DNA of 64,000 nucleotides, taken from positions 62,001 through 126,000 of the forward strand of contig NW_026942550.1 in the NCBI RefSeq assembly GCF_024139115.2. Reading direction: 5' to 3'. The notes beneath the pieces are model-generated. The model saw only the letters and a list, made by a program, of their open reading frames with translations, was not told the DNA's origin and made no database searches. This document shows, piece after piece, positions 9,262 to 47,305 of the stretch. Numbering within the stretch: position 1 is the first letter of the stretch; every line of letters begins with the position of its first letter. A program made the position numbers and the translations under genes. This DNA is from Armigeres subalbatus. Taxonomy: Eukaryota; Arthropoda; Insecta; Diptera; Culicidae.

Positions 9262-11346
<2,085 letters not shown>

Positions 11347-12374: not shown

Positions 12375-12429
12375 TAAATGAAAATAATCGTAGCTCTTAA
12401 AATATATATAAAATGGATAACTCCATAAA

Positions 12430-16100: not shown

Positions 16101-16310
16101 TAAATATATCCTTCATTTTGGCTGGGCTTTTCATTCGATTGAAATTCTGACAATAAATTAGAACTTCAGTCGAATTCTGTTTCGGCGAAGAAGTTTCTGG
16201 AAGTATGACGGTCGACGAAATATTTACCTCTTCTGATGTTTCATGTAGCGTGTTATCTTCACTTGTTAATGTGAATAGTGCATAGAAGATTTTTAAATTT
16301 GTTCAGTCGA
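13141..16310 (-). mobile_element. 5'-truncated non-LTR retrotransposon (CR1/Jockey group), copy A
   Basis: The element reads on the minus strand and ends in (AAAT)n, seen as repeated TTTA at 13141-13159, a microsatellite tail as in CR1/L2-type elements. It encodes ORF2 only: endonuclease (about 15600-16170), linker and reverse transcriptase with PQGSHLGPPLF and YADDMKLF. ORF1 is missing, so the 5' end is truncated; that boundary is only approximate. Several frameshifts and stops are present. The near-identical copy at 43161-46315 is part of the segmental duplication, not an independent insertion. The exact clade is unresolved. Confidence 0.85.
13308..16170 (-). pseudogene. Retrotransposon ORF2 (endonuclease plus reverse transcriptase), broken
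   Basis: Endonuclease motifs appear at 16110-15560: ILATETSWDESV, SVYFPPNH and VHIYGDFNQRNADF. A linker frame (14835-15530) leads to the polymerase: KGPGPDGIPPIFMK, WKNSLLIPIFKSGKKSD and NYRGIAIISCIPKL (14540-14827). After a shift come HVEALYTDFSKAFDRID, ATYGVPQGSHLG and LIYADDMKLF (14033-14422). The thumb carries ILEYCSIVWSPF and ESVQKQFLLFALRKLGW (13308-13829). At least three frame breaks separate these pieces. Confidence 0.85.
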
Positions 16311-16403
16311 GGTTTTGCCTTTTGATCCCACATCTCTTCATCCATTGTACTGGTTGTGGAGGATAATATTCAGAATGCCATGATTCACTGATCGCCATGC
16401 ATA

Positions 16404-16527
16404 GGGTAAGGGAGGTATTTTGGACCACCAATTCGACGTTTTATATTTTGAACCACTGAGAGCAAATTCCTCTTGGTGGTCCAAAATAAGAGCCCCGTAA
16501 GGGTGATCCAAAATACATCCTTTACCC
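16404..16527. mobile_element. 124-bp TA-flanked MITE, copy A
   Basis: GGGTAAGGGAGGTATTTTGG at the left is matched imperfectly by the inverted right end (TCCAAAATACATCC..TTTACCC). TA borders both ends (16402-16403 and 16528-16529). The interior contains a second inner pair of GGTCCAAAAT words. The same element, also 124 bp, is at 46411-46534 in copy B, so it predates the duplication. Confidence 0.75.
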
Positions 16528-16620
16528 TATTATGTACAAGACAAAGTTCAGAAATAAAAAAAATACAAAACTTTATCAATAAGTTTGGATTAAAACTGTG
16601 ATTCATCCGCCATTAAGCAT

Positions 16621-16693
16621 TTCGTCCGAGGTACCCCCTGGGCCCGGCGAAAGTACCCCCAGTGGTACATGTACCCCAAGTTGAGAACCGCTG
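16621..16693. mobile_element. Terminus of a hAT-type element, copy A
   Basis: Read on the minus strand this begins CAGCGGTTCTCAACTTGGGG and runs through palindromic GTACATGTAC and GGTACCCCC words. This resembles the widespread hAT terminus that starts CAG-GGTTCTCAA. I could not place the second terminus, so it may be a solo end. It is also present in copy B (46625-46699). Confidence 0.5.
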
Positions 16694-16699
16694 TTATAA

Positions 16700-17299
16700 A
16701 AGACCGAGGAATGCTTTGCATCTCCGTGAGCGCTACGGGAAAAGAATCGTTGGCTAGTAGAGAAGATAATTCTCGGGTACTTTTTCAAATCGGCGTATGT
16801 AACATTTTGATCAAGCTGAGAAAATGGGCTTGAAAGTTTTCAGATTTTATTTTTATTCCTATTTAGAAACTAAACATTTTTATTGCAATTGAATTCACCT
16901 CAACGGTACATTATGAAAAATTTCATCGTCACTGACTCTGAAATCAGCACTGCGTGTGAACATTTCAGTTATTTTGATAAAAATATATGTTACAACGTTT
17001 TGCAACAGATAAATCACATACGTCGTTTGGTAAGTCAGCATGACCGAGGTCATGCTACTTTCGTCGAAATGTTACGCTTCTCCGTACGCTGCATTGTTGA
17101 TACGTCGAAATGTTGCGTCAAGTTGAAACGTTTCACGCACATGCGACAAAAAAATGTCAACACTTACAACACGACGTAACAACATTTGCTGCAGAAAAAC
17201 AACGTAAAATGTTTTTCTTAACAAAAATCAGAATATACAATCAACAAGCATAATTTTGAAATCAGTGATGAAAAATACAAGCAGACGCACGTTTTAAAC
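16700..17299. other. Unique-looking duplicated sequence left of the 15.4-kb insertion
   Basis: This is AT-rich. A plus-strand frame of 98 codons at 16883-17179 is conserved in copy B (46888-47184) with few differences. It has no recognisable domain, and short conserved frames are expected in a recent duplicate. The last eight bases TTTTAAAC (17292-17299) are the target site duplicated by the neighbouring insertion. Confidence 0.4.
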
Positions 17300-17319
17300 C
17301 AGGAACTAATAACCGGGAC
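17300..17319 (+). repeat. Left terminal inverted repeat of the 15.4-kb transposon
   Basis: CAGGAACTAATAACCGGGAC is identical to the inverted right end. A small hairpin, GGGAC then GTCCC six bases later, begins inside the repeat and has no counterpart on the right. Confidence 0.95.
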
Positions 17320-17632
17320 GTGATTGTCCCGAAGAACCGATTAAAAATTCATGCAACCCCAGATGAGCTCACGAGACCAGCACCGCCAGAGGCGCTAGTG
17401 TATTTTACTCACTTTTCGGTAAATTTATTTGAAAGTGTTTTGGTAAGTGCAGACTTTTTTGCTGTGAGTTTTGACAGAACTTTAACCTCAATCCAAAATA
17501 CGTTTCATTTACGTTTTTTCTGTTTTCTGTCCATCAACATATTCCATCAATTTCTTTTTGCCTTCAAATTGTGTGGCAGTTTTAGTTTTTAAATGTTTAG
17601 ATTTTAAATAGCAAACATTTCTCAGTATACAG

Positions 17633-17818
17633 TTGCTGCGTATTTCAACACGAGAAAGCGTGTAGCGGCGGGTGAGTTTAGTGCGATTACTCGGAACAAG
17701 AATGCCACCGCTGGTGAATCTGGTTCCGCTGGAGCTCCGGATAGGAAGATGACCCGAGTTTTCCAGTCTATCAAAAGGATCGGCGTCGTCAAAGTTGATG
17801 TAAAGAGCTACCAAAATT
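17633..17818 (+). pseudogene. Possible Cdt1 (double-parked) N-terminal fragment
   Basis: After a TTTCTCAG acceptor-like sequence a frame reads ISQYTVAAYFNTRKRVAAGE and continues to a TAG at about 17818. The segment QYTVAAYFNTRKR resembles the PCNA-binding degron (Q-x-x-hydrophobic-x-x-aromatic-aromatic, then basic residues) at the N terminus of Cdt1, the replication licensing factor. The rest of the frame (serine/glycine-rich, then MTRVFQSIKRIG) is not recognised. Other PCNA-binding proteins have similar motifs, so this call is tentative. Confidence 0.35.
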
Positions 17819-17944
17819 AGATGGGAAACAGCGAGCGAGGCGTGCAAACCCCGACAATGCAAGCCTCCACACTAGCAATGAAGCGCAAGTAACTAATTTT
17901 TGACGAATCCCAAAGCAAGCTGAGCAGGAGCTCATGATTAGAAA

Positions 17945-18450
17945 ATGGCCCTTCACGTCCCGAAAGCACTTGGATTTGCTTCCATGTTAAAGGAAGGCGC
18001 TCGTGTAAGTATAAATTGCTGGATCCGAAGGTGGATTCGAGTCCAAATTGGTTATTTTTCCGGACGGATGGCGATGACTCACGTGAGTGTTTTTTCCCGT
18101 AGGCTTATTCAGGCCGAGAGGAGCAGTATACCGGAACATATACGCCTTAAGGTGCGCTCGGAATGAACAAAATGATCATCAATCACATCGAGAAGCAGTT
18201 CGTCACTTCCTATGCGGGCACCATCAGGGATGTCGAACATCCGGCAGCCAAACTGATGATCCAGGTCAGCCAGATGCAGGAAGCCCAAATGGGAGATGTT
18301 TTCCATCTTCGTGGTGGTGTTTTGCGGGGCGTTGCTGGAGGCTGCTTAAGAGCTGCTTCGATTGGGAGTGATGATATTACCGAAGGGTATGAGAGAGCCC
18401 TGGATCTGGCTTTGGAAGCTCTACCAAGTCTGGTTACAGTGCAAAGATGA
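17945..18450 (+). pseudogene. CCT8: CCT8 (chaperonin TCP-1 theta subunit) 5' gene fragment, captured
   Basis: CCT8 is one of eight subunits of the cytosolic chaperonin that folds actin, tubulin and other proteins. ATG at 17945 opens MALHVPKALGFASMLKEGAR, the characteristic N terminus. A GTAAGT donor follows at 18005 and an AG acceptor at 18102 (98-bp intron). Exon 2 then gives EEAVYRNIYA (after a one-base shift), NKMIINHIEKQFVTS, VEHPAAKLMIQVSQMQEAQM, a shifted FVVVFCGALLEAA and ELLRLG, and finally ITEGYERALDLALEALPSL. Internal deletions and frameshifts make it non-functional. The retained intron argues for DNA-level capture rather than retrocopying. It stops abruptly at the helicase fragment. 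Confidence 0.88.
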
Positions 18451-19860
18451 CGACCGTTTCGCCAAACACATGACGAAACACGGGCGCATATTTGGTTTCA
18501 TTCGTCAGGTTGATGACTACATTCTGGAGGAACCGAGTTTCGCCGTGCGTTTGGACTACCGTCCCGATTACGCCAGAACGTTGGTGTACGTGCGGAACGT
18601 GTCACCCCATTCGGTGTTGCGACTCAGCATGGCCTACATCCACCTGGCAGACGGTCACATGAAGATGCTGATTGAAAGCGAGATGCGCCTTCCTTGGGGT
18701 ACGGTTTCAAAGTTTTGCTTCGACAGTTGCCTGCTTTCGGAGCTGGATAGAAGCTACGGACTGATATTGGTTGGACTGGCGGACTCAAAGACAGAAATAT
18801 TGGAACTTTACCACCTGCAAGTGACCGTGTTGAGTCATTTCATGAAAGAGCAGCTAATTTTGAAGAAACTAACGATTCATTGTCCGCCGTTGAATCAGTA
18901 TCCGGTACCGATGTTGATCAAACAGTTGTATAAGCACGACTTTTCAACGAAATCTAAATTTGATGGCGCGAAGCAACTGCTGGATCAGTTGGCTAAATTC
19001 AAGGAAGAGGCCTTGAATAAGGGGAACTATATTGAATATTTAAATGTACTGAAACAGATAGAGGACTTTGATATTCAAATGGAATATACTAAGTACAAAA
19101 TCGATGAAGCTAGACTAGTGCCCGGTATTTCAGAGAAGTATTATCGTTTGTCGGTATGTAAAAACAAGCGTATTATTTTTACAATCCAATTTTATTTTAT
19201 TTGTATATGCTTTTATATTCGATTTGTAGATCGATCAATTTCAAACGGCACCCACCCTTTTGAATGATGACTGCACGGTAAGGATGATCATTCCCAGCGA
19301 GTTCGAACCCCGTAGCTTTCTAGAAACTATCCATGAGATCAATCCAGATTACATGTTGATTCATGTAAACACCATTCTTGAACCGTCTCCAACCTACACG
19401 ATTGTGTTTGAATGCAGTCGGCTCTTATTTCAGCTGGAATACTATGTCCTATCTTAGGTGAAGGAAATTGACTTTGAAAAACATTGTTCCCCTAAGCCAC
19501 CGATGGAAAAGAAGATCATATACGAGAGGTGAGTTTTGTTACAAAATGTTCGAACTCAAATGATGCAATACAGTGCGTTTTACAGTTTTCAATGGTTCAA
19601 CAAATATGTCGCAATAAATCACGAGCAGCTGTCTGCTGTGCGAAATATCGTGAATCGGACTTCGTTCCCTGCTCCGTACATATTGTTTGGACCACCCGGT
19701 ACTGGAAAAACTTCAACTATCGTAGAGGCAGTTTTACAAATTTGGAAACTACAACCCAAAGCCAACGTTCTCGTACCGGCAGCTTCAAATTTCGCCTGTG
19801 ATGAATTCACCACGCGCCTGCTGGAATTCATTCCCGCCACCGATGTGTTCCGTTTCGTAT
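18451..19860 (+). pseudogene. armi: Armitage/MOV10-type RNA helicase fragment, captured with introns
   Basis: Armitage and MOV10-family proteins are SF1 RNA helicases; insect Armitage acts in piRNA production. Three exons are visible: 18451-19153 (starting DDDRFAKHMTKHGRIFGFI), 19230-19528 and 19586 onward. The introns are 76 bp (19154-19229) and 57 bp (19529-19585), with GT-AG ends. Diagnostic segments are FDIQMEYTKYKID, FQWFNKYVAINHEQLSAVRN, the Walker A motif GPPGTGKT (19689-19712) and ASNFACDEFTTRLLEFIP. An in-frame TAG at 19455 interrupts exon 2, and the sequence ends soon after motif Ia near ATDVFRF, so helicase motifs II-VI are absent. MOV10-family identity is firm; Armitage rather than another paralogue is inferred. 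Confidence 0.85.
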
Positions 19861-19917
19861 CCTTCGTATCGATTTTGCTGATAACGGAACAACACCTTCG
19901 TTCTCAAAGAGCAGTGG

Positions 19918-20787
19918 AGGTTTTGAGGAAGGTGGTGAGTATCGTCGCGGCCCCGACTACGAATATCCGGAAGGCGGTACATCATACGAGGAAAATTCAT
20001 CGTACGGCTATGGTGGAAGTGGAAGACCGTTCCGCGGCCGTGGAGGATTCCGCGGACGTGGTGGTTTCCGTGGCGGTTTTTATCGTGATGGCCCACCGCA
20101 CCACGGGGACAATGATGAATGGCGTCGATCAGGAGTCGATGGCAAATATGATTCACGCCGTCGTTCGTGAACCAGGAATCGATAGATCTAGCTCCCGTTC
20201 ACCGAGGCGACGCAGTCCGGCTGATTCTGATTCGTCTTCTTGTATGAATGGCATGTTATCGAATGCAAGAACGTTACCAGAAGTGGCACGGAAATCTACC
20301 ACAGTCTGGTAAGGGGCGCTGATTTTGAACACTATTCCCCGCCAAGTTGCACCTAACGGACGGAGACCACGAAATAGTGGACAGCCTGATGAAGGACGAG
20401 GAAGGTAAACACCACCTTCGTATTACTCAGCGACTACGCCTCGATCAACCCAAGTTGGAAAATCTGCAGAAGCGCATATCGACGTCATCGTCGCACGCAA
20501 TCTTCCTCGGCCTGCTGGGATCGACGTCATCGGTAGCATCGTCGGATGATGTCAGCGTTCAGACGCGTCCACTGCGTAATCTCGTGTCCTACCTGAAGCA
20601 GAAAGAAGCGGCCGGCGTTATATCCTTACTCAATAAAGAAACGGAAGCAACCGATGTGCTCTACTCATTCCCGCCATGCGATTTTTCGACAGAATTGTTG
20701 AAACGAACATGTCACAACCTCACCGAGGAGGGACTGAAGGAAGACCATCTGGTAATCGTGGTGGTCCGAGGAGGAACAATCCTCTGA
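19918..20787 (+). pseudogene. nito: Spenito-type protein 3' fragment: RGG/RS tail and SPOC domain, captured
   Basis: Spenito (RBM15-like) is a nuclear RNA-binding protein with RRMs and a C-terminal SPOC domain, part of the m6A writer complex and of sex determination in flies. The fragment opens in an RGG-rich stretch (FRGRGGFRGRGGFRGGF), passes an RS-rich stretch (SSRSPRRRSPADSDSSS), then shows SPOC pieces: HLTDGDHEIVDSLMKDEEGK, RPLRNLVSYLKQKEAAGVIS and FPPCDFSTELLKRTCHNL, ending HLVIVVVRGG near the natural C terminus, TGA at 20785. Stops near 20168 and 20310 and a one-base shift near 20330 break the frame. The RRMs are missing. No intron is evident in the fragment. Confidence 0.85.
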
Positions 20788-20789
20788 AG

Positions 20790-21100
20790 TGCCTTCTTTC
20801 TAGTATTGCAGCAACTAGTCCATATTGGCACAGCATACAACATGGCTGGTCTAAAAATTTGTTTGTAAATCAAAAGTTTGTTCTTAAGACGAAGTTTTGA
20901 CTTTCTGTTTATAAGTGGATCACTTAATATATTTGTTACATTTGGCTTGAAGGCCTTCAATGTGATTTTTAAAAGTTAAAGTTAATTTAAGATCTAGCAG
21001 AAGTCCTAAATATTTAAAATTCGAATAGTTTACCTGCAGTGAGCGATCTGATAAATAATTTTGGATCAGTTTAATACCTAGTTGGTTGGTTGTTTGCTCA
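20790..21100 (-). pseudogene. Jockey-type reverse transcriptase thumb fragment
   Basis: Minus-strand frames read IKLIQNYLSDRSLQV, then FKYLGLLLDLKLTLTFKNH, then INRKSKLRLKNKLLIYKQIF and RPAMLYAVPIWTSC. These are the region after the catalytic box in Jockey-clade polymerases. The catalytic box itself is missing between the first two pieces, so an internal deletion has occurred. Related shorter relics lie near 56260 and 57630. Confidence 0.75.
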
Positions 21101-22430
21101 TTGTTTGTTGGTTGCTTCATTGTTTGTTGGTTGATTGATTGGTTATTTAGTTGATTGCTACAATTGCTTATTGGTTGGTTGGTTAATAAGTTGATTGGTA
21201 GCTTGCTTGAATGGTTGGTTGTTTGATTAGTTAGTTGATTGATTCGTTGGTTATTTGGTTAGTTGGTTGTTGCTTGATTTGTAAGTTGGAAGAATGGTTG
21301 ATTGGTTGGTTTCTTTTTTGTTTATTGATTACTTGATTGGTTGGTAATTTGGTTGATTGGTTGGTCGGCTCGTTAGTTCATATGTTGGTTTGATGGTTGC
21401 TCGAATGGTTGATTAGTTGGTTGGTTGAATGATTGTTTGGTTGATTGGTAGCTTGCTTGAATGGTGGGTTGCTTGATTGCTTGGTTGATTGGTAGTTTGC
21501 TTGAATGGTTGGTTATTTGATTGATTGCTGCTTGATTTGTTAGATGGTAGAATAATTGATTGGTTGGTTGATTGCTTGCTTGATTGGTTTGTCGGCTGGT
21601 TAGTTGACATGTTGTTTTGTTGGTTGCTTGGTTGGTTGATTAGTTGATTCGTTGCTTGATTGATTGGTAGCTTACTTGAATGGGTGATTGCTAGATTAGT
21701 TGGTTGATTATTTGGTTGATGGGTTGCTGTAACCGTTTGATTGAATGGTTGGTCGGCTGGTTGGTTGATTGGTTGTTTTGTTGGTTTCTTGATTGGTTGA
21801 TTAGTTGATTGATTGATTGATTAGTTGATTGGTTAGTTGTTGCTTGATTTGTTAGTAAGTAGAATTGTTGATTAGTTAGTTCCTTGATAGTTGGTTGGTT
21901 GCTTAATTGGTTGTTTGGTTGTTTTATTGTTTGTTGGTTGATTGATTGGTTATTTAGTTGATTGGTTGGTTGGTTGATTGTTGGTTAGTAGAATGATTAT
22001 TTGGTTGGTTGCTGCTTGATTTGTTAGTTGGTAGAACTGTTGAATGGTTGGTTGCTTGATTGGTTGGTTATTTGGTTGATTGGTTGTTTGACTGGTTGAT
22101 TGATTGGTTGGTCGGCTGGTTAGTTGATTAGTTGTTTTGTTGGTTGCTTGAATGGCTGATTAGTTGGTTGCTTGATTAGTTGATTGTTGGCTTGCTTGAT
22201 TGGTTGGTTGCTGGAATCGTTGACTAGTTGATTATTCAGTTGATTGCGTGCTTGATTGGTTGATTGATTAGTTGATTGGTTGATTAGTTGGTTAGTTGAT
22301 TATTGGTCGGTTGCTTGATGGGTTGATTAGTTGATTTGTTGATGACTTGATTGGTAGATTAGTTGGTTGTTTGCTTGATTTGTTAGTTGGTAGAATTGTT
22401 GAATGGTTTATAGTTGGTTGGTTGCCGATA
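21080..22430 (+). repeat. Degenerate GGTTGATT-type tandem repeat, block 1 (T/G strand)
   Basis: About 1.35 kb built from four-base words GATT, GGTT, TGGT and GCTT in imperfect repetition (for example TTGGTTGATTGGTTGGTT). There are no A/C-strand units in this block. Frames through it are low-complexity and not coding. Block 2 continues after the LOA element at 26410. Confidence 0.9.
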
Positions 22431-25400
22431 GTCACTACAATCAAACGTGGCTATCAAAGATCAGAGCCAGTTAATGTTCCTTTCGACCTCACGAAGAACA
22501 TTGATTCGCAAAAATTTGCATCGGCGGTAAAAACTGGTATTGAATCAACTGATATTCTTCCACCACTGGATGAATCTCGATTCCTTACAGAATTGATTCA
22601 TAAAAGCGCATTAGAAGCTCAGAAACGACGCGTTCCAAGTACATCTGTCATAAGAAGACCAGCCACTCCTGGATGGGATGATGAATGTACTAAGTTGTAT
22701 TCTGAGAAATCTGATGCTTTCAAGGCTTTCCGTAAACACGGAAGGTCTGAGCTTTTCGAAGAGTATTTGAGGCTTGAAAGAAAGCTGAAAAACCTTCTTA
22801 AGGCTAAAAGCGTAGCCACTGGCGACGTTTTGTCGAGGGACTATCACGAGAAACCTCAATGACAACTCTTTGGAAAACGGCCCGCAATATGCGGAACCGT
22901 ATCTCCACCAACGAGAGTGAAGAATACTCCAATCGATGGATATTCAACTTCGCAAAAAAGGTCTGTCCAGATTCCGTACCAGCTGAACCGCTATTTAGAG
23001 AATCAACTACTGATCCCGGTTCTCTGGGTGGACCATTCTCAATGCTGGAACTATCTATGTCTCTTCTTTCATCGAACAACTCTTCCCCGGGATGCGATAA
23101 CATTAAATTCAACCTTCTGAAAACCCTCCTGATATCGCTAAAGACGATTACTTGGCCTGTACAACTGTTTCATGGAGTACAACATTGTGCCACCAGAATG
23201 GCGACAGGTGAAAGTAATAGCTATTCAAAAGCCTGGGAAACCAGCGTCTGATCACAATTCATACCGACCGATTGCCATGCTATCATGCATGAGAAAGTTA
23301 TTGGAGAAAATGATCCTTTCAAGAATCGACCATTGGGTCGAACAAAATCCATTACTCTCAAATACCCAGTTTGGTTTTCGCAAAGGTAAAGGAACAAATG
23401 ATTGTCTAGCGTTGCTCTCTTCAGATGTACAGCTGGCCTATGCGCACAAGGAACAACTGGCTTCAGTATTTTTGGATATTAAGGGCGCTTTTGATTCAGT
23501 TTCCATAGAAGTACTGTCAGACAATCTGCGCAGTAGTGGATTACCCGATATTTTAAATAATTTCTTGTACAATTTGTTGTCAGTAAAACATATGAACTTT
23601 ACTCTCGGCACTCTGACAACTTCCAGAAATAGTTACATGGGCCTTCCCCAAGGATCATGTTTAAGTCCCTTGCTTTATAATTTTTATGTTAAAGATATTG
23701 ACAATTGTTTGGAAGGACAATGCACGCTCAGACAACTTGCAGATGACGCCGTGATCTCTCTAAGAGGTCCATGTGCAAATGCCATGCAAGGACCATTGCA
23801 AAGTTCCCTAGATAACCTGACTGTTTGGGCCAGACATTTAGGGATCGAGTTTTCACCGCAAAAACTCAATTGGTTGTGTTTACTAGAAAGCGGAATCCAG
23901 CTCAACTGAAACTAAAGCTGTTGAATGATGACATCAACCAATCTTTATCTTCTAAATACCTTGGGGTCTGGTTTGATTCCAAGTGTACCTGGAAAACCCA
24001 TATTGATTATTTGATAGATAAATGCCGGAAAAGGATACATTTTCTACGTTCTATATCCGGAACGTGGTGGGGTGCTCACCCGGCAGACCTCATCAAACTC
24101 TATAGAACGACTATTCTCTCTGTTTTAGAGTACGGCTCTTTCTGCTTCCTCTCAGCAGCTGATTGCCACCTAATTAAATTGGAACGTATTCAATATCGTT
24201 GTTTGCGTATTGCTCTCGGCTGTATGCATTCAACGCATAACATGAGCCTGGAGGTGCTTGCTGGAGTCACTCCTTTAAAGCACCGTTACTGGGAACTCTC
24301 ACTTAGAATACTGATCAAATGTGGGACAAGTAACACACTTGTCTTAGAAAATTTCGATAATATGCTTGAACTGATTCGTCAGTCAAGATTCCTGAGGGTC
24401 TACCTCAACTACATATCGTCAGATCTTTGTCTTCCATGTTATAATCCACCTCGAGTTAACTTCATCAACGACAGTTCCTCCATTGAATACGATCTGTCCA
24501 TGAAACACGCTATTCAAGGAATACCAGATCATCTTCGACAAATATCTATTCCCTCCATTTTTTCTGAAAAATATGAACATGTCAATTGCAACAACAGATA
24601 TTTCACTGATGGTTCTCGCATCAACGGATCCACTGGCTTCGGTGTCTTCAATGTAAATTCAACTACCTTCCGAAAACTTCAGGAACCGTGTTCGGTTTAT
24701 GTTGCTGAGCTGGCAGCAATTAACTTCGCTTTGGGGATAATTTCCAATCAGCCCGTAGACCATTATTTCATCTTCTCGGATAGTCTTAGTTCTATCGAGG
24801 CACTCCGGTCGATGAAACCTGTAAAGCACGCATCTTACTTTCTTATAAAAATAAGAGAGCAGATGCGTGATTTGGTCGAAAGATCATTCAAGATTACCTT
24901 TGTATGGGTCCCATCCCATTGCCTAATCTATGGCAATGAGAAAGCGGACACGCTAGCAAAGGTGGGCGCACAGGAAGGTGAAGTTTATGATAGACAAATC
25001 TCGAACAACGAGTTTTTCCCATTAGTCCGTCAGAGTACTCTTCAAAATTGGCAAATGAATTGGTCACACAACGAACTTGGACGGTGGCTATTTTCTATAG
25101 TTCCTAAAGTTTCTGCGCGAGCGTGGTTCAGAGGTGAGGACTTGAGTCGAGGCTTCATTCGCGTGATGTCGAGGCTTATGTCCAATCACTATTCACTAAA
25201 CGCACATCTCTACAGAATAAACCTTGTCGATAGCAACTTATGTAGGTGCGGAGCCGGTTACGATGACATCGATCACGTAGTTTGGTTCTGCTCGGAAAAT
25301 GACGCCTCCAGAGAGCAATTATTGGATACCCTTGTGGCCCGAGGTAAACAACCCTTCAGGGAAGTAAGAGGTGTATTGGGAGATCGCGATGTGGATTATA

Positions 25401-25837
25401 TGCAGGCCATCTATGCCTTTCTTCGCTCGGCTGATATCGAAGTCTAATGCCCGTGTTTATCTCTTTCTCAGTTTTTTTCTCCGTTTGATTCTGTTTTTCT
25501 GTTCCGTGTACCACAAAGCCCTGGCCATCCGGAAGATGCTCCATGCCGAACAAAAATCGAGCACGACGCCACGCAAAACCGTTTCCAACGTCAAATGCCC
25601 GGATGAGCAGCTGGAATAACCCTAAACCCTACTCCTACCCCGTCCGTCCTGAATTAAGTAATTGTTAACCTTGAGTCACCACGAGTATTATGGTCTACGT
25701 CCCCCTTCCCTACTAACTGTTAATGATAAGATGATACTCATTGTAAAAATATCATACTTAAGAATAGCGGCTCCGCAAAGTGTCACACACGACTGAGCCT
25801 ACCAAATAAATGAAATGGCAAAAAAAAAAAAAAAAAA
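22430..25837 (+). mobile_element. 5'-truncated LOA/I-group non-LTR retrotransposon with RNase H
   Basis: It is inserted in the simple repeat. It starts inside ORF2, between endonuclease and polymerase, so it is 5' truncated. It ends with AATAAA (25805) and an A18 tail (25820-25837). It encodes reverse transcriptase and RNase H plus a C-terminal cysteine/histidine motif, which separates it from the Jockey elements in the window. At least three frameshifts are present. No clear target duplication was found next to the tail. Confidence 0.88.
22440..25447 (+). pseudogene. LOA/I-type ORF2: reverse transcriptase and RNase H, frameshifted
   Basis: Frames in order are 22440-22862 (linker, TPGWDDECTKLYSEKSDAF), 22859-23251, 23172-23909 and 23825-25447. 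Polymerase motifs are WRQVKVIAIQKPGKP, YRPIAMLSCMRKLLEKM, NTQFGFRKGKGTNDCLALL, VFLDIKGAFDSV, MGLPQGSCLSPLLYNFY and LRQLADDAVISL. RNase H catalytic residues appear in RYFTDGSRINGSTGFG (D), VAELAAINFAL (E), IFSDSLSSIEAL (D) and GNEKADTLAKVGA (D). The end carries CRCGAGYDDIDHVVWFC, a cysteine/histidine motif common in this group. The last 540-codon frame is intact, but the whole ORF2 is not. Confidence 0.88.
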
Positions 25838-26150
25838 GCCAGAAAACTCGGCAACAGATACCACAATTGGCGGAATCCTTTGCTTTTTCGCATGAATCGA
25901 ATCACCTGGGCTAGAGGTAGATTCGATTTGCTCAATTTCATCATTAATCAAATCGAATTGATTGCTCAGTTCGATTGGAGAAGAATTATTTCCGATATTA
26001 GAGTTAGAAGGAATATCTGAATTCTCCAGCTTCCTTCTATTTTTTCCGCGCTTGGGCAGGACGGTCTTGAAACCTTGTTTCTTTGAAGGAAGTGGAGAAT
26101 TCAGAGACTCCCCTTCCTCTTGTTTTTGTTAATACTCATTGCTGAGCGTG
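25838..26150 (-). pseudogene. Retrotransposon ORF1 N-terminal fragment (Jockey-like)
   Basis: On the minus strand a serine/asparagine/lysine-rich frame reads SPLPSKKQGFKTVLPKRGKN, later QFDLINDEIEQIESTSSPGD and KKQKIPPIVVSVAEFSGF, ending at the LOA poly(A). The KxPPIVV segment resembles the start of the conserved domain in Jockey-group gag proteins. The ATG at about 26141 is out of frame by one base. Sequence 26150-26410 looks like its 5' untranslated region. The LOA insertion probably cut it, since the remainder is not found on the other side. Confidence 0.6.
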
Positions 26151-26409
26151 GAGACGTGACCTTCTAAGAGGTTTTTTCCCAGAACGGTGTCCCTGCAGGA
26201 TTACCACCGCTTGTCGGAATTTTACTTCCGCAAACGGGTCCAACGTAAAACGAAGGCACGGGTCCTTGCAAAGATCGTAACGGGATCAGTGGGTACAAAT
26301 AGCGCTAAGAAGCACCGTTGAAATTAAAATAGCTTCGGGTAGTATTAAAAACTTCCTTCCGCAAAGAGAGAAAGAACCGCACAGCACGAAAGCACGATGC
26401 GGTCTCTAG

Positions 26410-27035
26410 TATGGTTGATTGGTTGGTTGCTTAACAGGTTGATTGATTGGTTAGTAAGCTGGTTAGTTGATTAGTTGTTATGTTGGCTGCTTGGTTGATT
26501 GATTAATAAGTTGATTGCTAGATTGGTTGGTTAGTTGATTGGTTGATTATTTAGTTGATTGGTTGTTTGATTGGTTGCTTGATTGGTTGATTAGCTGGTT
26601 GGTTGCTTGATTGCTTGGTTGATTGGTAGCTTGCTTGAATTGTTGGTTAATGGTTGCTTGATTGTTGGTTGGTTGCTTTACTGGTTGATTGGTTAGTCAG
26701 CTGGTTAGTTGATTAGTTGTTTGGTTGGTTGCTTGGTTGATTGGTTAATAAGTTGATTGGTAGCTCGCTTGAATGGTTAGTTGATTGATTGGTTAGTTAT
26801 TTGGTTGATGGTTTGGTTGGTTGCTGCTTGATTTGTTAGTCGGTATAATGGTTGATTGGTTGGTTGCTTCATTGTTTGTTGATTGATTGATTGGTTGGTA
26901 ATTTGGTTGCTTGGTTGATTGGCTCGTCGGCTGGTTAGTTGATATGTTGTTTTGTGGGTTGCTTGGTTGGTTGATTAGTTGAGTCGTTGCTTGATTGATT
27001 GGTAGCTTGCTTGAATGGCTGATTGCTGGATTATC
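26410..27035 (+). repeat. Degenerate GGTTGATT-type tandem repeat, block 2 (T/G strand)
   Basis: Same word set and strand as block 1. It stops abruptly at about 27035, where the complementary strand pattern begins. Confidence 0.9.
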
Positions 27036-30000
27036 CAATCAAGCAACCAATCAACTAAATAACCAACCAAGCAACCAACAAGCAATGAAGCAACCAGCCA
27101 ACTATCAACGAACCAACTAATCAACAGTTCTACCAACTAACAAATCAAGCCATAACCAACCAATCAATCAATCAACTAATCAACCAATCAAGAAACCAAA
27201 AAACAACTAATCAACCAATCAGCCGACCAACCATTCAATCAAACGGTAAAGCAACCCATCAACCAAATAACCAACCAATTAAGCTACCAACCAACTAATC
27301 CAGCTATCAGCCATTCAAGCAAGCTACCAATCAATCAAGCAACGAATCAACTAATCAACCAACCAAGCAACCAACAAAACAACATATCAACTAACCAGCC
27401 GACCAGCCAATCAACCAGTAAAGCAACCAATCAATCAAATTACCAAACAATCAATCAATCAACCAACAATGAAGCAACCAACCAATCAATCATTCTACCA
27501 ACTAACAAATCAAGCAGCAACCAACCAACCCTGTCCAGCAGATTTCCTGCAGCGCTACGACGTCGAAGTTGCGGGGATGTAATTCATCGTAGATTATCCT
27601 GTCGCAACCTGCGAAGCCTAGCGACTTGCAGTTCCATGTTCCAAGCTTCCAATCGTGATCCTTTATTCGTCGCCTAGGCCGATTGTATCGAGTCGTATTA
27701 TCTTCTATGTCGTTCGTAATAGTTGTTTTTAAAGGCGGCTTATTGAGCCTGCGCAAAACTCCTGTCTCGTCGGAGGGCCGTCGTGTCAGGGCTGTTTAGC
27801 GTCCCACCTAACACCAGGACTTGGGCTTGTGCGCTTTGAGCGGCACACGGTCGCTTTGGCGGAGCCTACTTGCGGATACATGCAGCTTTTTATAGAGGTT
27901 AAACAGGGTCTACTGTCAAACCCCACCACATCCTAGGCAGACGCCACAACTCGCAGATGGCCTGGGGAGGGATCGTCAAGCCCTTGGACAAAGTCCCTGC
28001 TGCCCCCGACCAACCAACCCATCAACCAAATAACTAACCAATCAATCAACTAACCAATCAAGCAATCTAGCAATCAACTTATTAACCAATCAACCAAGCA
28101 ACCAACAAAACAACCAATCAACTAACCAACAAGCAACCAACCAATCAACCAGTCAACCAACCAACCAACAATGAAGTAACCAACCAACAATCAAGCAACC
28201 AACCAATCAACCATACTACCAACTAACAAATCAAGCAGCAACCAACCAATCAAGTAAGCTACCAATCCACCAAGCAATCAAACAACTAACCAACCAACCA
28301 ACTAATCAACCACCAAGCAACCAACAAAACAACATGTCAACTATCCAGCCGACCAACCAATCAAGCAACCAATGAATCAACTAGTCAAGCAACCAGTCAA
28401 CCAAATTAATAACCAATCAAGCAATCAACCAACCAATCAACCATTCTACCAACTAACGAATCAAGCATCAATCAATCAAATAATCAACCTTTAAAGCAAG
28501 CTACCAATCATCCAAGCAATCATTCAACCAATCAAGCAACCAACAAAACAACATATGAACTAACGAGCCGACCAAACAATCAATCAACCAGTCAAGCAAC
28601 CAATCAACCAAATTACCAACCAATCAAGGAATCAATAAAAAAAAAGCAACCAACCAATCAACCATTCTTCCAACTAACAAATCAAGCAGCAACCAACTAA
28701 CCAAATAACCAACGAATCAATCAAGTAACTAATCAAACAACCAACCATTCAAGCAAGCTACCAATCAACTTATTAACCAATCAACCAAGCAGCCAACAAA
28801 ACAACTAATCAACTAACCAGCCGACTAACCAATCAAGCAACCAACCAATCAACCAGTCAAGCAACCAACCAACAATCAAGCAACCAACAATTCAAGCAAG
28901 CTACCAATCAACCAAGCAATCAAACAACCAACCAGCTAATCAACCAATCAAGCAACCAACCAATCACCAATCAAGCAACCGATCAACCAAATATCCAATC
29001 CAGCAATCAACTTACCAAGCAGTCAACAAAACAACTAATTTACTAACCAATCAATCAACCTGTCAAGCAACCAACCAATCAACCATACTACCAACTAACA
29101 AATCAAGCAGCAATCAACCAAATAATCAACCAAGCAATCAAGCAACCAACCAACTAATTAAGCAACCAACCAACCAACCAATCAAGCAACCAAACAACCA
29201 ATCAAGCAACCAATCAACTAAACAACTTATCAATTAACGAGACGAGCAACCAATCAACTAAATAACCACAACCAATCAATCAAGTAAAGCAACCAATCAA
29301 CCAAATAAGTAACCAACCATCAATCAATTAACTAATCCAGCAACCAACCAATCAAGCAAGATACCAATCAAACAACAAACTAATCAACCAATCAATTAAC
29401 AAGCTAATCAACCAAATAAAGCAACCAACCAATCAACCATTCAAGCATCCAACAAAACAACTAATCAACTAACCAGCCGACTAACCAATCAAGCAACCAA
29501 CCAATCAACCAGTCAAGCAACCAACCAACAATCAAGCAACCAACAATTCAAGCAAGCTACCAATCAACCAAGCAATCAAACAACCAACCAGCTAATCAAC
29601 CAATCAAGCAACCAACCAATCACCAATCAAACAACCAATCAACTAAATAACCAATCAATCCAGCAATTAACTTACCAAGCAGCCAACAAAACAACTAATC
29701 AACTAACCAGCCTACTAACCAATCAATCAACCTGTCAAGCAACCAACCAATCAATCATACCATACTACCAACTAACAAATCAAGCAGCAGCCAACCAAAT
29801 AATCAACCGACCAATCAAGTAACCAACCAGTCAAACAAGCTACCATCTACCAAGCAATCAAGCAACCAACCAACTAATCAACCAATCAACTAATCAACCT
29901 GTCAAGCAACCAACCAATCAACCATACTACCAACTAACAAATCAAGCAGCAATCAACCAAATAATCAACCAAGCAATCAAGCAACCAACCAACTAATTGA

Positions 30001-30405
30001 GCAACCAACCAACCAATCAAGCAACCAACCAACCAATCAAGCAACCAACCAACTAATTAACCAATCAAATAAACAACTTATCAATTAAGTTGACGACCAA
30101 CCAATCAAGCAACCAATCAACTAAATAACCACAACCAATCAATCAAGTAAAGCAACCAATCAACCAAATAAGTAACCAACCATCAATCAATTAACTAATC
30201 CAGCAACCAACCAATCAAGCAAGCTACCAATCAAACAACAAACTAATCAACCAAATCAACAAAACAAGCTAATCAACCAAATAAGCAACCAACCAATCAA
30301 CCGCAGAAATCAACCATTCAAGCATCCAACAAAACAACTAATCAACTAATCAGCCGACCAACCAATCAATCAATCAGTCAAGCATCCAACCAACCAAATA
30401 ACCTA
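27036..30405 (-). repeat. Inverted block of the same tandem repeat (A/C strand)
   Basis: About 3.4 kb of CAATCAACCAACCAAT-type words, the complement of blocks 1 and 2. Longer units are repeated inside it: a stretch around 28790-28990 recurs at 29455-29660, and 29080-29330 recurs at 29930-30200, showing segmental amplification within the array. It is interrupted once, at 27517-28010. Confidence 0.9.
27517..28010 (-). pseudogene. Non-LTR retrotransposon 5' fragment with endonuclease start
   Basis: A minus-strand frame reads DHDWKLGTWNCKSLGFAG then FDVVALQEICWTG, the first two motifs of an apurinic-type endonuclease (TWN and LQE). Upstream sequence to 28010 resembles a 5' leader (ACAGGAGTTTTGCGCAGG). 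The rest of the endonuclease and the polymerase are absent. The clade is uncertain. Confidence 0.7.
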
Positions 30406-30830
30406 CCAGGATCTCGGAAGGATTCCCTGGATAAGCCAGGAAGGATAGATAGGCAAATTAGGAAATATTCCGCGCAGAATCTCTGAAGGATTCCCTGCAG
30501 AATCTCGGAAGGATGGACTGCAGAATCTCCGCAGGATTTCCTCCCGAATCTCGGAAGGATTTTCAGCAGAATCTCGGAAGGTTTCCTTGCAGTTTGGAAG
30601 GATTCCATGAGAATCCCGGAAGGATACGCTGTAGAATCTCGGAAGGATTCCCTGCGGAATCCCAGAATGATTCTTTGTGGAATCTCAGCAAGGCTCCCTG
30701 CGGAATTCCAGACGGATTTGCTGCGTGATTCCGGAATAATTCGCTGCGGGACTCCAGAAGGATTCCCTTCGGATTTCGAAAATAATTCCCGAAAGCATTC
30801 TCTTCGGAATCCCGAAAAGAAATTGAAAAT
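30406..30830. repeat. GGAATCTCGGAAGGATTCC minisatellite
   Basis: An imperfect ~30-base unit containing GAATCTCGGAAGGATTCC and GGAATCCC is repeated about 13 times. Each unit contains inverted halves, so both strands look alike and carry long frames (162 codons on minus). It is related in style to the large GGAATTCC array at 61440-63840. Confidence 0.75.
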
Positions 30831-31286
30831 TATAAAGAAATAAGTCAGTTCAATTCTATAGACCAATTCAGATGGATTTCTACTTATATATGAATATTTA
30901 TATGTTCATTCATACCTAGTACACTTTAGTTCGAACAATGTGGATTACGGGATAGTGATTCCGCTTGTCATGCCAAAACTTGAACGCGGTGCAAAAAATA
31001 ATTCACGGACAGCTGAACAGTGTCTTTCTTTCGAGAAGCTTCTTGTAACATATGTAGGATTTAGTTTACTTCTTTCTATAATTATTGTGTGATTCGATAC
31101 ATCAAACTGCGTGGGCGATAACCGCAGACGAAGCTGTACTCTAGGATTTCTCTGTTGGTATTTGGTATCTCCAGTCTCCGTCTGTTGCTACTACTATGAA
31201 TTCTATAACACTCCAAGCTATTCCAGATCGTCGTTCATTTCTTGCAATCTGGCCCTCTCGCTATCGCTTCTGCCCTGTCCGCCGCC
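30831..31286. other. Downstream sequence of the Tom20 copy and spacer
   Basis: About 31100-31286 lies directly 3' of the Tom20 stop on the minus strand and may be its untranslated region. 30831-31100 shows nothing recognisable. Confidence 0.35.
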
Positions 31287-31680
31287 TTACTGACGCATAC
31301 GATTGATCAGTAGTGTGAACACTTGGGATGGCAAGGTCTGTTGGAGGACTTGGAGAAGCTGTGCCGGTTGGCCGCAGACGATCACTGCGTTAGCCAGATG
31401 CTCGACACCGTTCTCGATGTCACCGGAAGAGATGAGGGCCTCGCCCGTCTGAATTTCCTGGAGGAAAAATCTTGCACTTCTTCATGGTCTGCCATGTTGG
31501 GCATCGTCGTCCGTGGCCCTCCAGCAGCCGAAACAGCCTTCGTCGCTTTCCTCCTCTCTCGCAGCTTCTTTTGAAGTCCGGATCTTTGCGGCGCTTGTGA
31601 TCGAAGTAGATGCAGTAGCTCAGGAACAGCGTTCCGGCCACGCCGGCTGCAATCCCGATGGTAGTTTTAGTAATCTCCAT
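31287..31680 (-). pseudogene. Tom20: Tom20 (TOMM20) near-complete copy, frameshifted
   Basis: Tom20 is the outer-mitochondrial-membrane receptor that binds presequences. The minus-strand start at 31680 gives MEITKTTIGIAAGVAGTLF, the N-terminal membrane anchor, then YFDHKRRKDPDFK. One T is missing at about 31570 compared with the neighbouring units, shifting the frame. Restored by eye, the conserved parts GGPRTTMPNMADHEEVQDF, EIQTGEALISSGDIENGVEH, NAVIVCGQPAQLLQVLQQTL and FTLLINRMRQ follow, with a second shift near 31465, ending at TAA (31287). It has no introns. The length is close to the ~145 residues of insect Tom20. Confidence 0.88.
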
Positions 31681-32440
31681 CTCAACGATTCCGGACCCGA
31701 GCTTCACGGTGGCACTAGCACGTTAATTCCGAACGAGAGAGAGGTCGAAAAGCGAAGAAATTTTCCTGCTTTTGTCCACGAAATGAACTTCTGACCTCCT
31801 CCTGCGCAGCTTCTTTTTGAAGTCCGGATCTTTACGGCGCCTGTGATTGAAGTAGATGCAGTAGCCCAGGAACAGCGTTCCGGCCACGTCGGCTGCAATC
31901 CCGATAGTAGTTTTACTAATCTCCATGTCAACGAGTCCGGACCCGAGCTTCACGGTGGCACTAGCACGTTAATTCCGAACGAGAGAGGTCGAAAAGCGAG
32001 GAAATTTTCCTGCTTTTGTCCACGAAATGAACTTCTGACCTCCTCCCGCGCAGCTTCTTTTTGAAGTCCGGATCTTTGCGGCGCTTGTGATTGAAGTAGA
32101 TGCAGTAGCCCAGGAACAGCGTTCCGGCCACGTCGGCTGCAATCCCGATAGTAGTTTTACTAATCTCCATCTCAACGATTCCGGACCCGAGCTTCACGGT
32201 GGCACTAGCACGTTAATTCCGAACGAGAGAGAGGTCGAAAAGCGAAGAAATTTTCCTGCTTTTCTCCACGAAATGAACTTCTAACCTCCTCACTCGCAGC
32301 TTCTTTTTGAAGTCCGGATCTTTGCGGCGCTTGTGATCGAAGTGGATGCAGTAGCCCAGGAACAGCGTTCCGGTCACGCCGGCTGCAATCCCGATGGTAG
32401 TTTTACTAATCTCCATCTCAACGATTAGCTTCACGGTGGC
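31681..32440 (-). repeat. Three extra tandem copies of the Tom20 leader plus membrane anchor
   Basis: A unit of about 237-246 bases is repeated (marker GCTTCACGGTGGCACTAGCA at 31701, 31947, 32191 and 32428). It contains upstream sequence and the first ~35 codons of Tom20, with starts at about 31929, 32169 and 32419. Each unit ends in the same unrelated tail (SEVHFVDKSRKISSLFDLS) and a stop near LVRN. Three frames of roughly 65-78 codons stay open and encode an intact signal-anchor segment (TTIGIAADVAGTLFLGYCIY). Copies differ by scattered substitutions. Whether any is expressed cannot be told. Confidence 0.85.
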
Positions 32441-32688
32441 ACTAGCAGGAACTAAGAACCATCAAGTTCATCTCATACTTTATAATTTTAACAGAACTTA
32501 TTTATGATCAGAGCAGACAAAAAAACAAAAACAAAACATCGATGCTGTCAGTTATGCGTGCACGGAAAAATAATCATGCGGAAAATGATGACTGACAGCA
32601 TCTGGTTAGTGTCTTTTCAGTTGTATACCTAGGAATCCTACACACCGATTGAAACTTGAACGCAACACGGGAAAATCCCGAGTGTCTG
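32441..32688. other. Subterminal region between Tom20 units and right end
   Basis: Non-coding. It contains a hairpin-forming pair: GATGCTGTCAGT near 32541 and its inverse ACTGACAGCATC near 32590. Promoter elements for the Tom20 units might be here but none is clear. Confidence 0.35.
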
Positions 32689-32708
32689 GTCCCGGTTATT
32701 AGTTCCTG
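32689..32708 (-). repeat. Right terminal inverted repeat of the 15.4-kb transposon
   Basis: Read on the minus strand this is CAGGAACTAATAACCGGGAC, exactly the left end. It lies about 255 bases upstream of the first Tom20 unit. Confidence 0.95.
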
Positions 32709-32979
32709 TTTTAAACTATTTAGTTGTTCGAAAAAAATTTTTTAAATACATTTTCTGCTAAGCGGTGTATGTGCAATATTTTCAACAATGATGTTACACC
32801 GTTTTGAAAAATATTGTTTTACATTTTTAATGACACATTTTCATGCAGCTTTGAAGATATACACATTTTTAGATGAATTTGATGTTATATGCTGTTGAAA
32901 ACGGGTTTGTTTACAATTTGCGACATACGCCGTTTTGAAAAAGTACCCGAGAATTCATTGATAAGCGACTAAGTATTTA

Positions 32980-33144
32980 GGGGCTGTACACCTATTACGT
33001 AAGCACTTATGGGGGGAGGGGCGGTCGGTCAATATTTTACGCTCCATATAAATAAAAATTCATTTGTATGAAAAAAATCTTACATGGGGGGAGGGGTGGT
33101 CGAAAAACCCAGACAAATTGCTTACGTAATAAGTGTACGACCCC
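32980..33144. mobile_element. 165-bp MITE, copy A
   Basis: GGGGCTGTACACCTATTACG is matched imperfectly by the inverted right end (CGTAATAAGTGTACGACCCC). The subterminal GTAAGC repeats and G-rich blocks are inverted too. The same element is in copy B (47569-47731). No clear target duplication was found. Confidence 0.75.
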
Positions 33145-34020
33145 ATTATTGTAAACGAAGTTATTTTGAAAACAAGAAGACGAAAACTGTGTTTGAAATC
33201 AATCCAACACAATTCGATGTGCTTCGTTTAATACTGGGAGCTGCGGATAGCGTCAAAACGAGTGCCAAAAAATCTCCAAGGTAAGCTGTCAAAAAGTATC
33301 CATCGCATCGAGAGAGGTTTTGTGCATTTTGAGCGCAGCCGAGAGAGTACACGTATAAATCAACTCATACTAAATATAGCTCATTTTGAACAAATTTCAA
33401 TTTTCTGGCGTCATTTTAAATATATAGACGGATTCAAAATACGTGGAGGAATTAATTAAATATTCGACACGTTAATTCATGCGATGCAGTAAGTTGACGA
33501 AATCTTTATAATTAATTCTATAAAGATAAACACAATGATAATTCAATGTAAGAAAATCGTAACGTGCACATTGAACACCGAGAGGAAATTTGCGAGTTTC
33601 AAGCAAAATATCTTGAAAATTGGATTCGATCGAGTCCGCAGCTCCCAGGTTTAACAAGATCTACAATTTCGATAGATCCATTCCGCACTAAATAATTCTG
33701 TCCTCTTCGATGCAGACATTGGTTTTATCACTTCGCGTTCTCCCACACTAACTGGCGTGATCAGCATCTACAAGATCGATTGTACACTGTACAAACAAAT
33801 TTCTGCTAGGCGAGGTAGATTTTTTTTTCACTTCGCGTTCTCCTGGACCAGCTGCCGTCCCATGACCAGCAGCAACACGATAGATTCCGCATACATATTG
33901 TACAAATAAGTAAAAAATATCACAAAATATAAATTTGAAATTTGGAAACACTGAAGACGTTTTATAGAAGAAAACTGCATACGTATTTGTCCACTAAGAA
34001 TAGGGTTATGTAGTTAGCGT
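33145..34020. other. Duplicated non-coding sequence with an inverted-repeat pair
   Basis: CTGGGAGCTGCGGA at about 33235 is matched by its inverse at about 33639. Open frames on opposite strands begin with similar peptides (LILGAADSVK and NLGAADSIES). Copy B shows the same with a 131-codon frame (47650-48045) that has no recognised domain. CTTCGCGTTCTCC occurs twice (33735, 33833). Confidence 0.4.
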
Positions 34021-34023
34021 TAT

Positions 34024-34397
34024 TAGAAAAACCCTGATTAATCCACCTAGCGGTGATGGTGCCTTTCTCGTGCATTATAAAAATAGTATTTTGGCCATTA
34101 CTTTTGAGCCCATAGTCCGATCTGGCCAATTTTCGATAGGAAACAATGGGAGGGTATTCTGCGTCGAGTGCAACATGTTGCGAGTAAATCGGTTAAGGAT
34201 AAGTGCCTGAAAAATGAGTGACATTTTTTACTCATTTTTTTAATAAAAAAAAGTGGTATTTTGGCCATAACTTCTGATCCCATAATCCGATCAGACAAAT
34301 TTTCAATAGGAAACAATGGTAGACTAGCCTGCGTCGAATGCAACGTGTTCCGAGTAAATCGGTTAAGGATAAGTACCTGAAAAATTAGTGACATTTT
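34024..34397 (+). repeat. ~167-bp repeat module, end of copy A
   Basis: It starts with the conserved terminus ATTAATCCACCTAGCGG and holds about two monomers. At 34397 it meets the start of an array in the opposite orientation. Copy B continues here with further monomers (48615 onward), so the junction marks the right break of copy A. Confidence 0.8.
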
Positions 34398-35600: not shown

Positions 35601-36236
35601 TTCGCTCCAAAAACCAAACTTTTACAGAAGGCCTGGAGACCCATATACCAATCGATTCAGCTCGACGAACTGAGATGATGTCTCTGTCTCTCCCACTTTA
35701 TACGGGAGTTTAGCAGAAAGACGGTCATGAGATTTATATCATAACAAATATTGCCCTCCGCTCGCGTGATGGGAATGACATTTTCGTTTTCTTTTTGTGT
35801 AGTCGCCCAACAAACAACGACAAGGTACAATTAAGCATCTAAGTTGAATTATTGTTTATATTTGTAATCTTCATAGCTGAATAAAATGGATGCTGAATGA
35901 TTCGCTAGACAGATTTCATCTCAGCATTTGATCCAACTAATATTCGACTTGGCATATTTATTTGTTTACCACCTTTATTTGAGGTCGAATTAACGTTTTA
36001 GTTTTATCACATTTCAGCACATTGGGGAAGTTTATCAATGTGCTGAATTAATGATTTTCAAAATTCTCTGTTCGACTATGATGTGATGCTCTAAAAGGGT
36101 GGTCGAATTGAGTTTGAATAGTAGATTAATAAGCAAGCATTAAAAATCCTTCTTAACCGTTGTCTTCTTAACCATTGGATTTCACCTTTACCGGATCTAT
36201 CGCACAGTGGAAAAAACATCATAATAGTTTATAATT
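35601..36236. other. Unassigned AT-rich spacer
   Basis: A repeat terminus relic extends to about 35690. Beyond that no gene, inverted repeat or tandem repeat is evident. Confidence 0.4.
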
Positions 36237-47297: not shown

Positions 47298-47305
47298 TTT
47301 TAAAC
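47298..47305 (+). other. Empty target site of the 15.4-kb transposon
   Basis: A single TTTTAAAC lies between sequences that match 17240-17291 on the left and 32717 onward on the right. This proves the boundaries of the insertion in copy A. Confidence 0.95.

Follow-up and report, generated by a model that had tools for sequence, protein, structure and literature searches.

The stretch analysed here, 64,000 nucleotides of the mosquito Armigeres subalbatus (contig NW_026942550.1, positions 62,001 to 126,000; hereafter, the window), contains a non-autonomous terminal inverted repeat (TIR) transposon with hAT-like features, the cargo of which is probably a mosaic of modules already taken up by other transposons. 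The element belongs to a family named TE-1 and, judging from its sequence, carries incomplete fragments of five host genes unrelated to one another: Cdt1, CCT8, a MOV10-type helicase, spenito, and Tom20. The mosaic nature of the cargo is deduced from the fact that Cdt1, CCT8, spenito (or MOV10 together with spenito), and Tom20 are each found in other elements that lack the rest. The cargo is modular in its descent, and copies loaded with all five genes have inserted elsewhere in the genome, with their own target-site duplications (TSDs).

The element and its five gene fragments

The initial annotation had proposed that one TIR transposon carries several host-gene fragments, each cut mid-gene, over 17633-32440. 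The TIRs, the TSD, and the protein matches bear this out. The fragments do lie roughly in that span, but the element itself extends beyond it. Its limits and gene cargo, in window coordinates, are the following:

17300..32708, plus strand: whole mobile element (TE-1), 15,409 bp, recognized by its TIRs, TSD, empty site, and TIR places genome-wide
17300..17319, plus strand: left 20-bp TIR, CAGGAACTAATAACCGGGAC, exact
32689..32708, minus strand: right 20-bp TIR, CAGGAACTAATAACCGGGAC, exact
17292..17299, unstranded: left copy of the 8-bp TSD of the TE-1 element, TTTTAAAC
32709..32716, unstranded: right copy of the 8-bp TSD of the TE-1 element, TTTTAAAC
47298..47305, unstranded: empty site with a single TTTTAAAC, in a second (paralogous) copy of the flanks within the window
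17617..17941, plus strand: Cdt1 fragment (protein N-terminus), with the start codon ATG changed to ATT and internal deletions
17942..18431, plus strand: decayed fragment of CCT8 (CCT theta), with exons 1 and 2 and the intron 18005-18102
18432..19862, plus strand: MOV10-type helicase fragment, with introns kept at about 19157-19229 and about 19530-19586
19863..20777, plus strand: spenito fragment that covers the RGG linker and the SPOC domain as far as the last codons, with frame changes near 20170 and 20330
30930..32445, minus strand: spliced Tom20 copy, with its first-exon region present in tandem three more times
32446..32460, plus strand (direct orientation): internal TIR-like stretch (14/15 bases) at the joint between Tom20 and the right end

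A control with 100 shuffles returned 0 matches to the TIR, with up to 3 mismatches allowed. BLAST finds the flanks of the element twice in the window, 10364-17299 corresponding to 40390-47305 (97.3% identity) and 32708-34398, on the right, to 47297-48986 (97.5%). These flanks are part of a segmental duplication or uncollapsed allele (8536-17299 and 39521-49000), with 167-bp satellite arrays at its sides, and it is this duplication that provides the empty site. As TTTTAAAC stands on both sides of the element and only once in the empty duplicate, the 15,409 bp entered here as a single unit. The insertion came after the duplication of the flanks, or onto one allele if the assembly has retained the other allele as the second flank copy.

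Cdt1, CCT8, the helicase, and spenito adjoin in the same orientation, while Tom20 is reversed. The abutting of CCT8, helicase, and spenito fragments in one orientation had been described initially, and holds with Cdt1 as a fourth member of the row. Cdt1, then listed as a possible fragment, is real, since PF08839 is carried by all nine proteins among the matches listed (five of them named Cdt1), with E-values from 1.5e-24 at best to 3.3e-4. The CCT8 piece matches the theta subunit in the PDB (E 2.8e-14) and Cpn60 in Pfam (E 1.5e-11). The helicase and spenito were searched as one joined conceptual protein, and the best 120 of 309 matches were considered. Among these, the top helicase match is unnamed (E 1.1e-208) and the top named one is a mosquito 'putative helicase MOV-10' (E 4.5e-180), whereas the top SPOC-protein match is likewise unnamed (E 1.3e-152) and the top one named spenito has an E-value of 1.0e-124. 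The spenito piece also matches the Pfam SPOC domain (E 1.4e-20) and RBM15 (E 7.6e-33). For Tom20, the best match is unnamed (E 7.1e-87) and the best named one is TOM20 (E 3.1e-76). Pfam recognizes six of ten window open reading frames (ORFs), namely CCT8, helicase, SPOC, Tom20, reverse transcriptase, and RNase H; the other four (N-terminal MOV10, 25841-26128, Cdt1, and the spenito linker) have no Pfam match. The N-terminal MOV10 piece gives 0 matches in the PDB, and NCBIfam, applied to four database proteins, yields no match naming the host gene.

Retention of introns in CCT8 and the helicase, another initial claim, is also verified: CCT8 keeps one, recognized by eye from its splice signals, and MOV10 two, inside an uninterrupted match to the parental gene. 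The reading frames are damaged, as Cdt1 lacks its ATG, CCT8, spenito, and Tom20 shift frame, and MOV10 has one stop outside its introns. At sites that are invariant in related insects, differences amount to 40/228 in MOV10, 13/203 in spenito, 7/111 in Tom20, and 7/35 in Cdt1. In leave-one-out controls, the share of differing sites runs from 0 to about 10%, so that the excess is clear for MOV10 and Cdt1, and spenito and Tom20 stay within the control range.

Copies in the genome and modules without their neighbours

The genome searched is a 1.336-Gb assembly, in which a 133-kb contig (C817) includes the window. Each search for cargo scored its 40 best candidates, and the counts of cargo copies are therefore lower bounds. 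The TIR occurs, with up to 2 mismatches, at 348 places, versus 0 for a reversed-pattern control, and many of these form opposed pairs 5.6-27 kb apart (among the 100 of 348 places listed). Fifteen opposed pairs were fetched as TE-1 siblings, and 12 of them have perfect TSDs (eleven of 7 bp, one of 8 bp). The further copies that the initial annotation proposed to look for thus exist, with the same cargo at some places and other cargo in siblings. All five genes stand together at at least ten places in the genome:

C817 (window); C3:138.07, C3:354.72, C3:236.97, and C3:274.81 Mb
C2:228.32, C1:266.21, C1:180.78, and C1:160.60 Mb; C1806

Three of these (C3:274.81, C1:160.60, and C1806) have the four-gene block split in two. 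The ends were read at nine five-gene places (all but C1806), eight of which have perfect and different TSDs, and it follows that the loaded element moved repeatedly. Six other fetched copies match 17300-21080 at 97.5-99.4%. Recognized host genes are present in 7 of the 15 siblings; these are given below together with one weak match:

L011: all five genes
L009 and L010: gustavus, from PDB matches to CG2944 (presumably the gustavus gene), E 2.6e-34 and 3e-49
L025_26: DET1, E 1e-98
L013: DET1, E 1e-5, at the cut-off
L019_20: CCT8
L023_24: Tom20, with the other four genes absent
L012: weak match to Cdt1, at 72% identity and covering 42% of the piece

In the remaining 7 of 15, no host gene was recognized, and 18 of 20 sibling ORFs have no Pfam match. 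About 140 bp separate the two gustavus-bearing elements, L009 and L010, which are oppositely oriented and differ in their TSDs. An ORF at L020:7431-7706 (minus strand) resembles, by eye, the C-terminal part of domino/p400 and has no Pfam match. A TIR scan of viral contigs gave 0 matches, and a tblastn search of phages with an L012 ORF none.

Single modules are widespread. Cdt1 without any CCT8 piece among the matches listed is found at at least ten places (77-82% like the window), with matches that end at 17934-17941, next to shorter ones. In one of these copies (L001), which bears the TE-1 left end, Cdt1 reaches about residue 243, versus about 171 in the window, and shows the same internal deletion. 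CCT8 without any Cdt1 piece among the matches listed is found at at least eight places (80-84%), L019 among them; for seven of these eight, the matches listed include a TE-1 left end close by. MOV10 with spenito, but without Cdt1 and CCT8, occurs at at least 14 places, many of them gapped, 11 of which match from 18432 on. Spenito alone is present at at least 13 places matching from 19853-19865 on, and at one more from 20020 on. These match starts are the window's own cut points, because the copies that were read continue further 5'.

Nine copies devoid of Cdt1 and CCT8 were read: L036, L037, L039, and L040 have both MOV10 and spenito, and L044, L046, L047, L048, and L049 have just spenito. The TE-1 TIR, searched with up to 5 mismatches, is absent from the fetched stretch in all nine and in L045 (10/10). 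Seven of the nine (not L040 and L048) begin with the same sequence of about 200 bp, (C)CATTGACGAATACATAGACC..., within differing flanks, and define a family named TE-2, which would be a separate mobile family. The initial annotation had considered that fragments occurring outside the transposon would speak against its reading, and this is partly the case, as MOV10 and spenito reside in TE-2 repeats. The MOV10/spenito joint (19862/19863) is common to TE-1 and to L036, L037, L039, and L040. MOV10 continues 5' of 18432 in the printed copies L037, L039, and L040, and spenito continues 5' of 19863 in the spenito-only copies. As TE-2 copies thus hold both genes further 5', the transfer is read as going from TE-2 to TE-1 and not in the opposite direction. 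Unrooted trees set the seven TE-1 copies apart from the TE-2 copies with a support of 0.963 (MOV10) and 0.968 (spenito), and the MOV10 split also separates TE-1 from the parental gene. One TE-2 copy, followed over 11.5 kb, contains spenito and TTGG and CCAA arrays.

Parental genes and assembly of the cargo

Comparison of the fragments with their parental genes, as suggested at the outset, succeeded for MOV10 and Tom20, but not for the other three. The MOV10 parent (C1:88.858 Mb) aligns with 18432-19862 without interruption, introns included (96.8% over 1,432 columns), and extends beyond both ends of the match; the MOV10 piece is a DNA-level copy with its introns. Two introns, one of 85 bp and one of about 11.6 kb, interrupt the Tom20 parent (C3:428.638-428.651 Mb), and since both are missing from the cargo, this piece is a spliced copy and not a DNA-level capture. 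As candidate parents of Cdt1 and CCT8, L067 and L068 were rejected as decayed copies, and of L044 and L045, both considered at first to be spenito parents, L044 was dropped because it carries the TE-2 terminus.

At 31550-32447, the region of the first exon of Tom20 is present in 3.6 repeat units. As to age, the units differ from each other by 3.3-8.5%, compared with 81/5,553 sites for the duplicated flanks (Fisher P 3e-6 to 0.03 in the four unit pairs tested, out of six). Match lengths suggest that the number of units varies between elements. The idea that the units correspond exactly to exon 1, hence to an RNA-level origin, was rejected, as the unit seems by eye to extend a few bases into exon 2, which fits a DNA-level tandem duplication after splicing.

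Microhomology at the junctions, another point raised initially, was found at two of the three left joints. Read by eye on single representatives, the shared bases are AG (2 bp) for Cdt1/CCT8 and GGTT (4 bp) for CCT8/MOV10, with none (0 bp) for MOV10/spenito.

Taken as a mosaic, the cargo could have been assembled as follows. Cdt1 and CCT8 would have been carried separately by other, older TE-1 members; spenito, then MOV10 with spenito, would have been gathered in TE-2 and handed to TE-1; and Tom20 would have been carried by a TE-1 member without the other four genes. The joints may have been made by DNA-level template switching or ectopic repair between cargo-bearing element copies, and the finished mosaic presumably multiplied with the help of a transposase provided in trans. 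The cargo itself would yield no working protein.

The initial annotation had favoured Pack-type capture, in which TE-1 took each fragment straight from a host gene, the elements with fewer genes being deletion derivatives. The part of it that stands is a gene-fragment TIR element, mobile with its cargo, but gene-by-gene capture by this element is improbable and, in its classic form, largely refuted. The close identity of MOV10 to its host gene, with introns kept, and the further host genes carried by the TE-1 family (gustavus and DET1) would suit it. Nevertheless, copies with fewer genes are longer than the window in spenito and MOV10 (TE-2) and in Cdt1 (L001), and the deletion-derivative reading is rejected on these grounds, as deletion cannot restore longer fragments. 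Moreover, the Cdt1-only and CCT8-only copies that reach the joint are 16-23% off the window, versus at most 5% for the five-gene copies.

Macro-transposition is a still weaker candidate. Here, two nearby short hAT-like copies would have flanked an old cluster of gene scraps unrelated to transposons and moved it whole. The 14/15 TIR-like direct stretch beside Tom20 is what such an event could leave, and the final 263 bp of the element, from that stretch on, could be a complete short element. On the left side, however, no second internal TIR was found near the end (up to 3 mismatches over 15 bases), and the modules are dispersed over separate elements and do not form one cluster in what was searched. 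Least probable of all is a Helitron that gathered the four same-orientation fragments, or their MOV10 and spenito part, and then rode inside a TE-1 element: the common orientation, kept introns, and abutting joints follow the Helitron pattern, and TE-2 may itself be of this class, but the Cdt1-only and CCT8-only copies bear the TE-1 left end, and a search by eye established no Helitron-type ends.

Several observations weigh against the mosaic as proposed. Regarding TE-1, no TSD was found at three of the 15 siblings (L015, L018, and L021_22) or at C3:138.07 (one of the nine five-gene copies read), and C1806 and C3:274.81 share the same 280-bp gap and are thus probably alleles, so that the ten places may be nine loci. 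Regarding TE-2, its terminus is not seen in L040 and L048 (two of the nine copies read), and neither its right end nor a TSD was found in the 11.5 kb of one copy, which leaves its class and mobility unproven. The parental gene joins L036 in the MOV10 tree with a support of only 0.62, the spenito tree has no parental spenito as root, and the genome searches made did not reveal a parent for Cdt1, CCT8, or spenito. The stretch 27531-28004 occurs in both a TE-2 copy and the TE-1 sibling L012, and the arrays around it are consequently not assignable to TE-2 alone. Finally, the Tom20 units could have been in tandem already before they entered the element.

Remaining features, class, and significance

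Between spenito and Tom20, the element consists of non-gene stretches:

20778..21080, plus strand: post-spenito stretch, common to TE-2 copies
21081..22425, unstranded: degenerate TTGG/TTGATTGG array
22428..25840, plus strand: non-LTR (long terminal repeat) retrotransposon, start approximate, with reverse transcriptase, RNase H, and a poly(A) end
26412..27033, unstranded: second TTGG array
27035..27530, unstranded: CCAA array, inverted relative to the TTGG arrays
27531..28004, unstranded: unique stretch between the CCAA arrays, with matches in a TE-2 copy (96%) and in L012 (89%)
28005..30408, unstranded: long CCAA array
30409..30929, unstranded: stretch with a 23-bp minisatellite, completely matched in the TE-1 siblings L018 (92%) and L011 (87%)

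The retrotransposon matches RVT_1 (E 2e-32) and RNase_H (E 3e-9) in Pfam, and has no match in any of the 15 sibling TE-1 elements. The TTGG arrays on the left and the CCAA arrays on the right of 21081-30408 are predicted to be able to form a long hairpin. Elsewhere in the window, a unit of about 563 bp that includes a minus-strand tRNA-Ser (AGA) gene stands four times in tandem at 36229-38168, the copies being about 99% identical, and a further non-LTR retrotransposon was recognized by eye at 675-4610 (minus strand), with reverse transcriptase, endonuclease-like, and zinc-knuckle ORFs.

With exact 20-bp TIRs, a TSD, and an empty site, the element is a TIR (class II) transposon. Helitrons have no TIR and no TSD, and display a 5' TC and a 3' hairpin followed by CTRR; the window element, which has both TIRs and a TSD, is not one of them. 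The TSD is 8 bp long in the window element and in L025_26, and 7 bp long in 11 of the 15 siblings and six of the seven further five-gene copies. Among the seventeen 7-bp TSDs, position 2 is a pyrimidine in 16 and position 6 a purine in all 17. The hAT target pattern resembles this arrangement, and the start of the TIR is hAT-like. No hAT transposase was seen by eye in the longest ORFs of 16 elements or by Pfam in 20 sibling ORFs, the genome not having been searched with the transposase family. By its TIR start and target-site pattern the element is hAT-like, as the initial annotation had it, but hAT membership is unproven, as the TSDs are mostly 7 bp long and the transposase was not seen.

Multi-locus Pack-MULEs exist in plants, and Helitrons can bear multi-gene cargo. 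Like the present element, plant Pack-MULEs and Pack-TYPE elements are non-autonomous TIR elements with several unrelated gene fragments side by side, but they belong to plant families (PMC8903248). Plant and bat Helitrons have likewise captured gene fragments (PMC4778049), the difference here being the 20-bp TIRs and TSDs. In animals, 370 Pack-TIRs, 208 of them hAT, have been published in the survey of Tan et al. (PMC8277862), which covered inserts of 100-5,000 bp from one unique parental source and reports none in insect reference genomes, one family in fly populations (Ssk-FB4), and only four multicopy cases. These are likewise TIR elements, mostly hAT, with host gene sequence, and their multicopy class was amplified with distinct TSDs; the present case differs by its 15 kb, five genes, at least ten places, and modules common to a second repeat family. 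Regarding the Pack-TIR definition, host-gene fragments from five genes lie inside the element and parents outside it were found for MOV10 and Tom20. Tan et al. exclude retrocopies (PMC8277862), a rule to which MOV10 conforms by its introns, and to which CCT8, with an intron seen by eye and no parent found, may conform, but not Tom20, the introns of which are lost. Whether gene-carrying TIR transposons arise by gap filling or by fork switching is under debate (PMC8277862), and such models of joint formation are here proposed to act between cargo-bearing elements. Turmoil-1 of Caenorhabditis elegans is likewise one animal element with fragments of two genes, but these lie in its inverted terminal repeats, and a stepwise series is not described in its abstract (PMC2572040). 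Given the animal Pack-TIRs (PMC8277862) and this two-gene element (PMC2572040), the initial suggestion that multi-gene capture by an animal hAT-like element would be new is too strong. A literature search, mostly outside subscription journals and judged from the titles listed, showed no insect multi-gene TIR element, no insect element of 10-20 kb with five genes and many copies, and no transfer of cargo from one transposon family to another.

It seems rather likely that unrelated transposon families in this mosquito pass host-gene cargo, a piece being taken once, spread, joined to others, and the resulting module adopted by a second family, so that multi-gene transposons would grow by module trading rather than by repeated capture from host genes. 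TE-1 keeps the likely intermediates of such a series (spenito; MOV10 with spenito; Cdt1; CCT8; Tom20; all five). As the joints are also readable to within a few bases, the order, direction, and type of joining can be tested directly in an animal, and the assembly of animal multi-gene transposons becomes traceable step by step. Filters on size and on a single parent hide such elements. The family also marks this mosquito as a species in which TIR elements reshuffle numerous housekeeping genes, gustavus and DET1 included.

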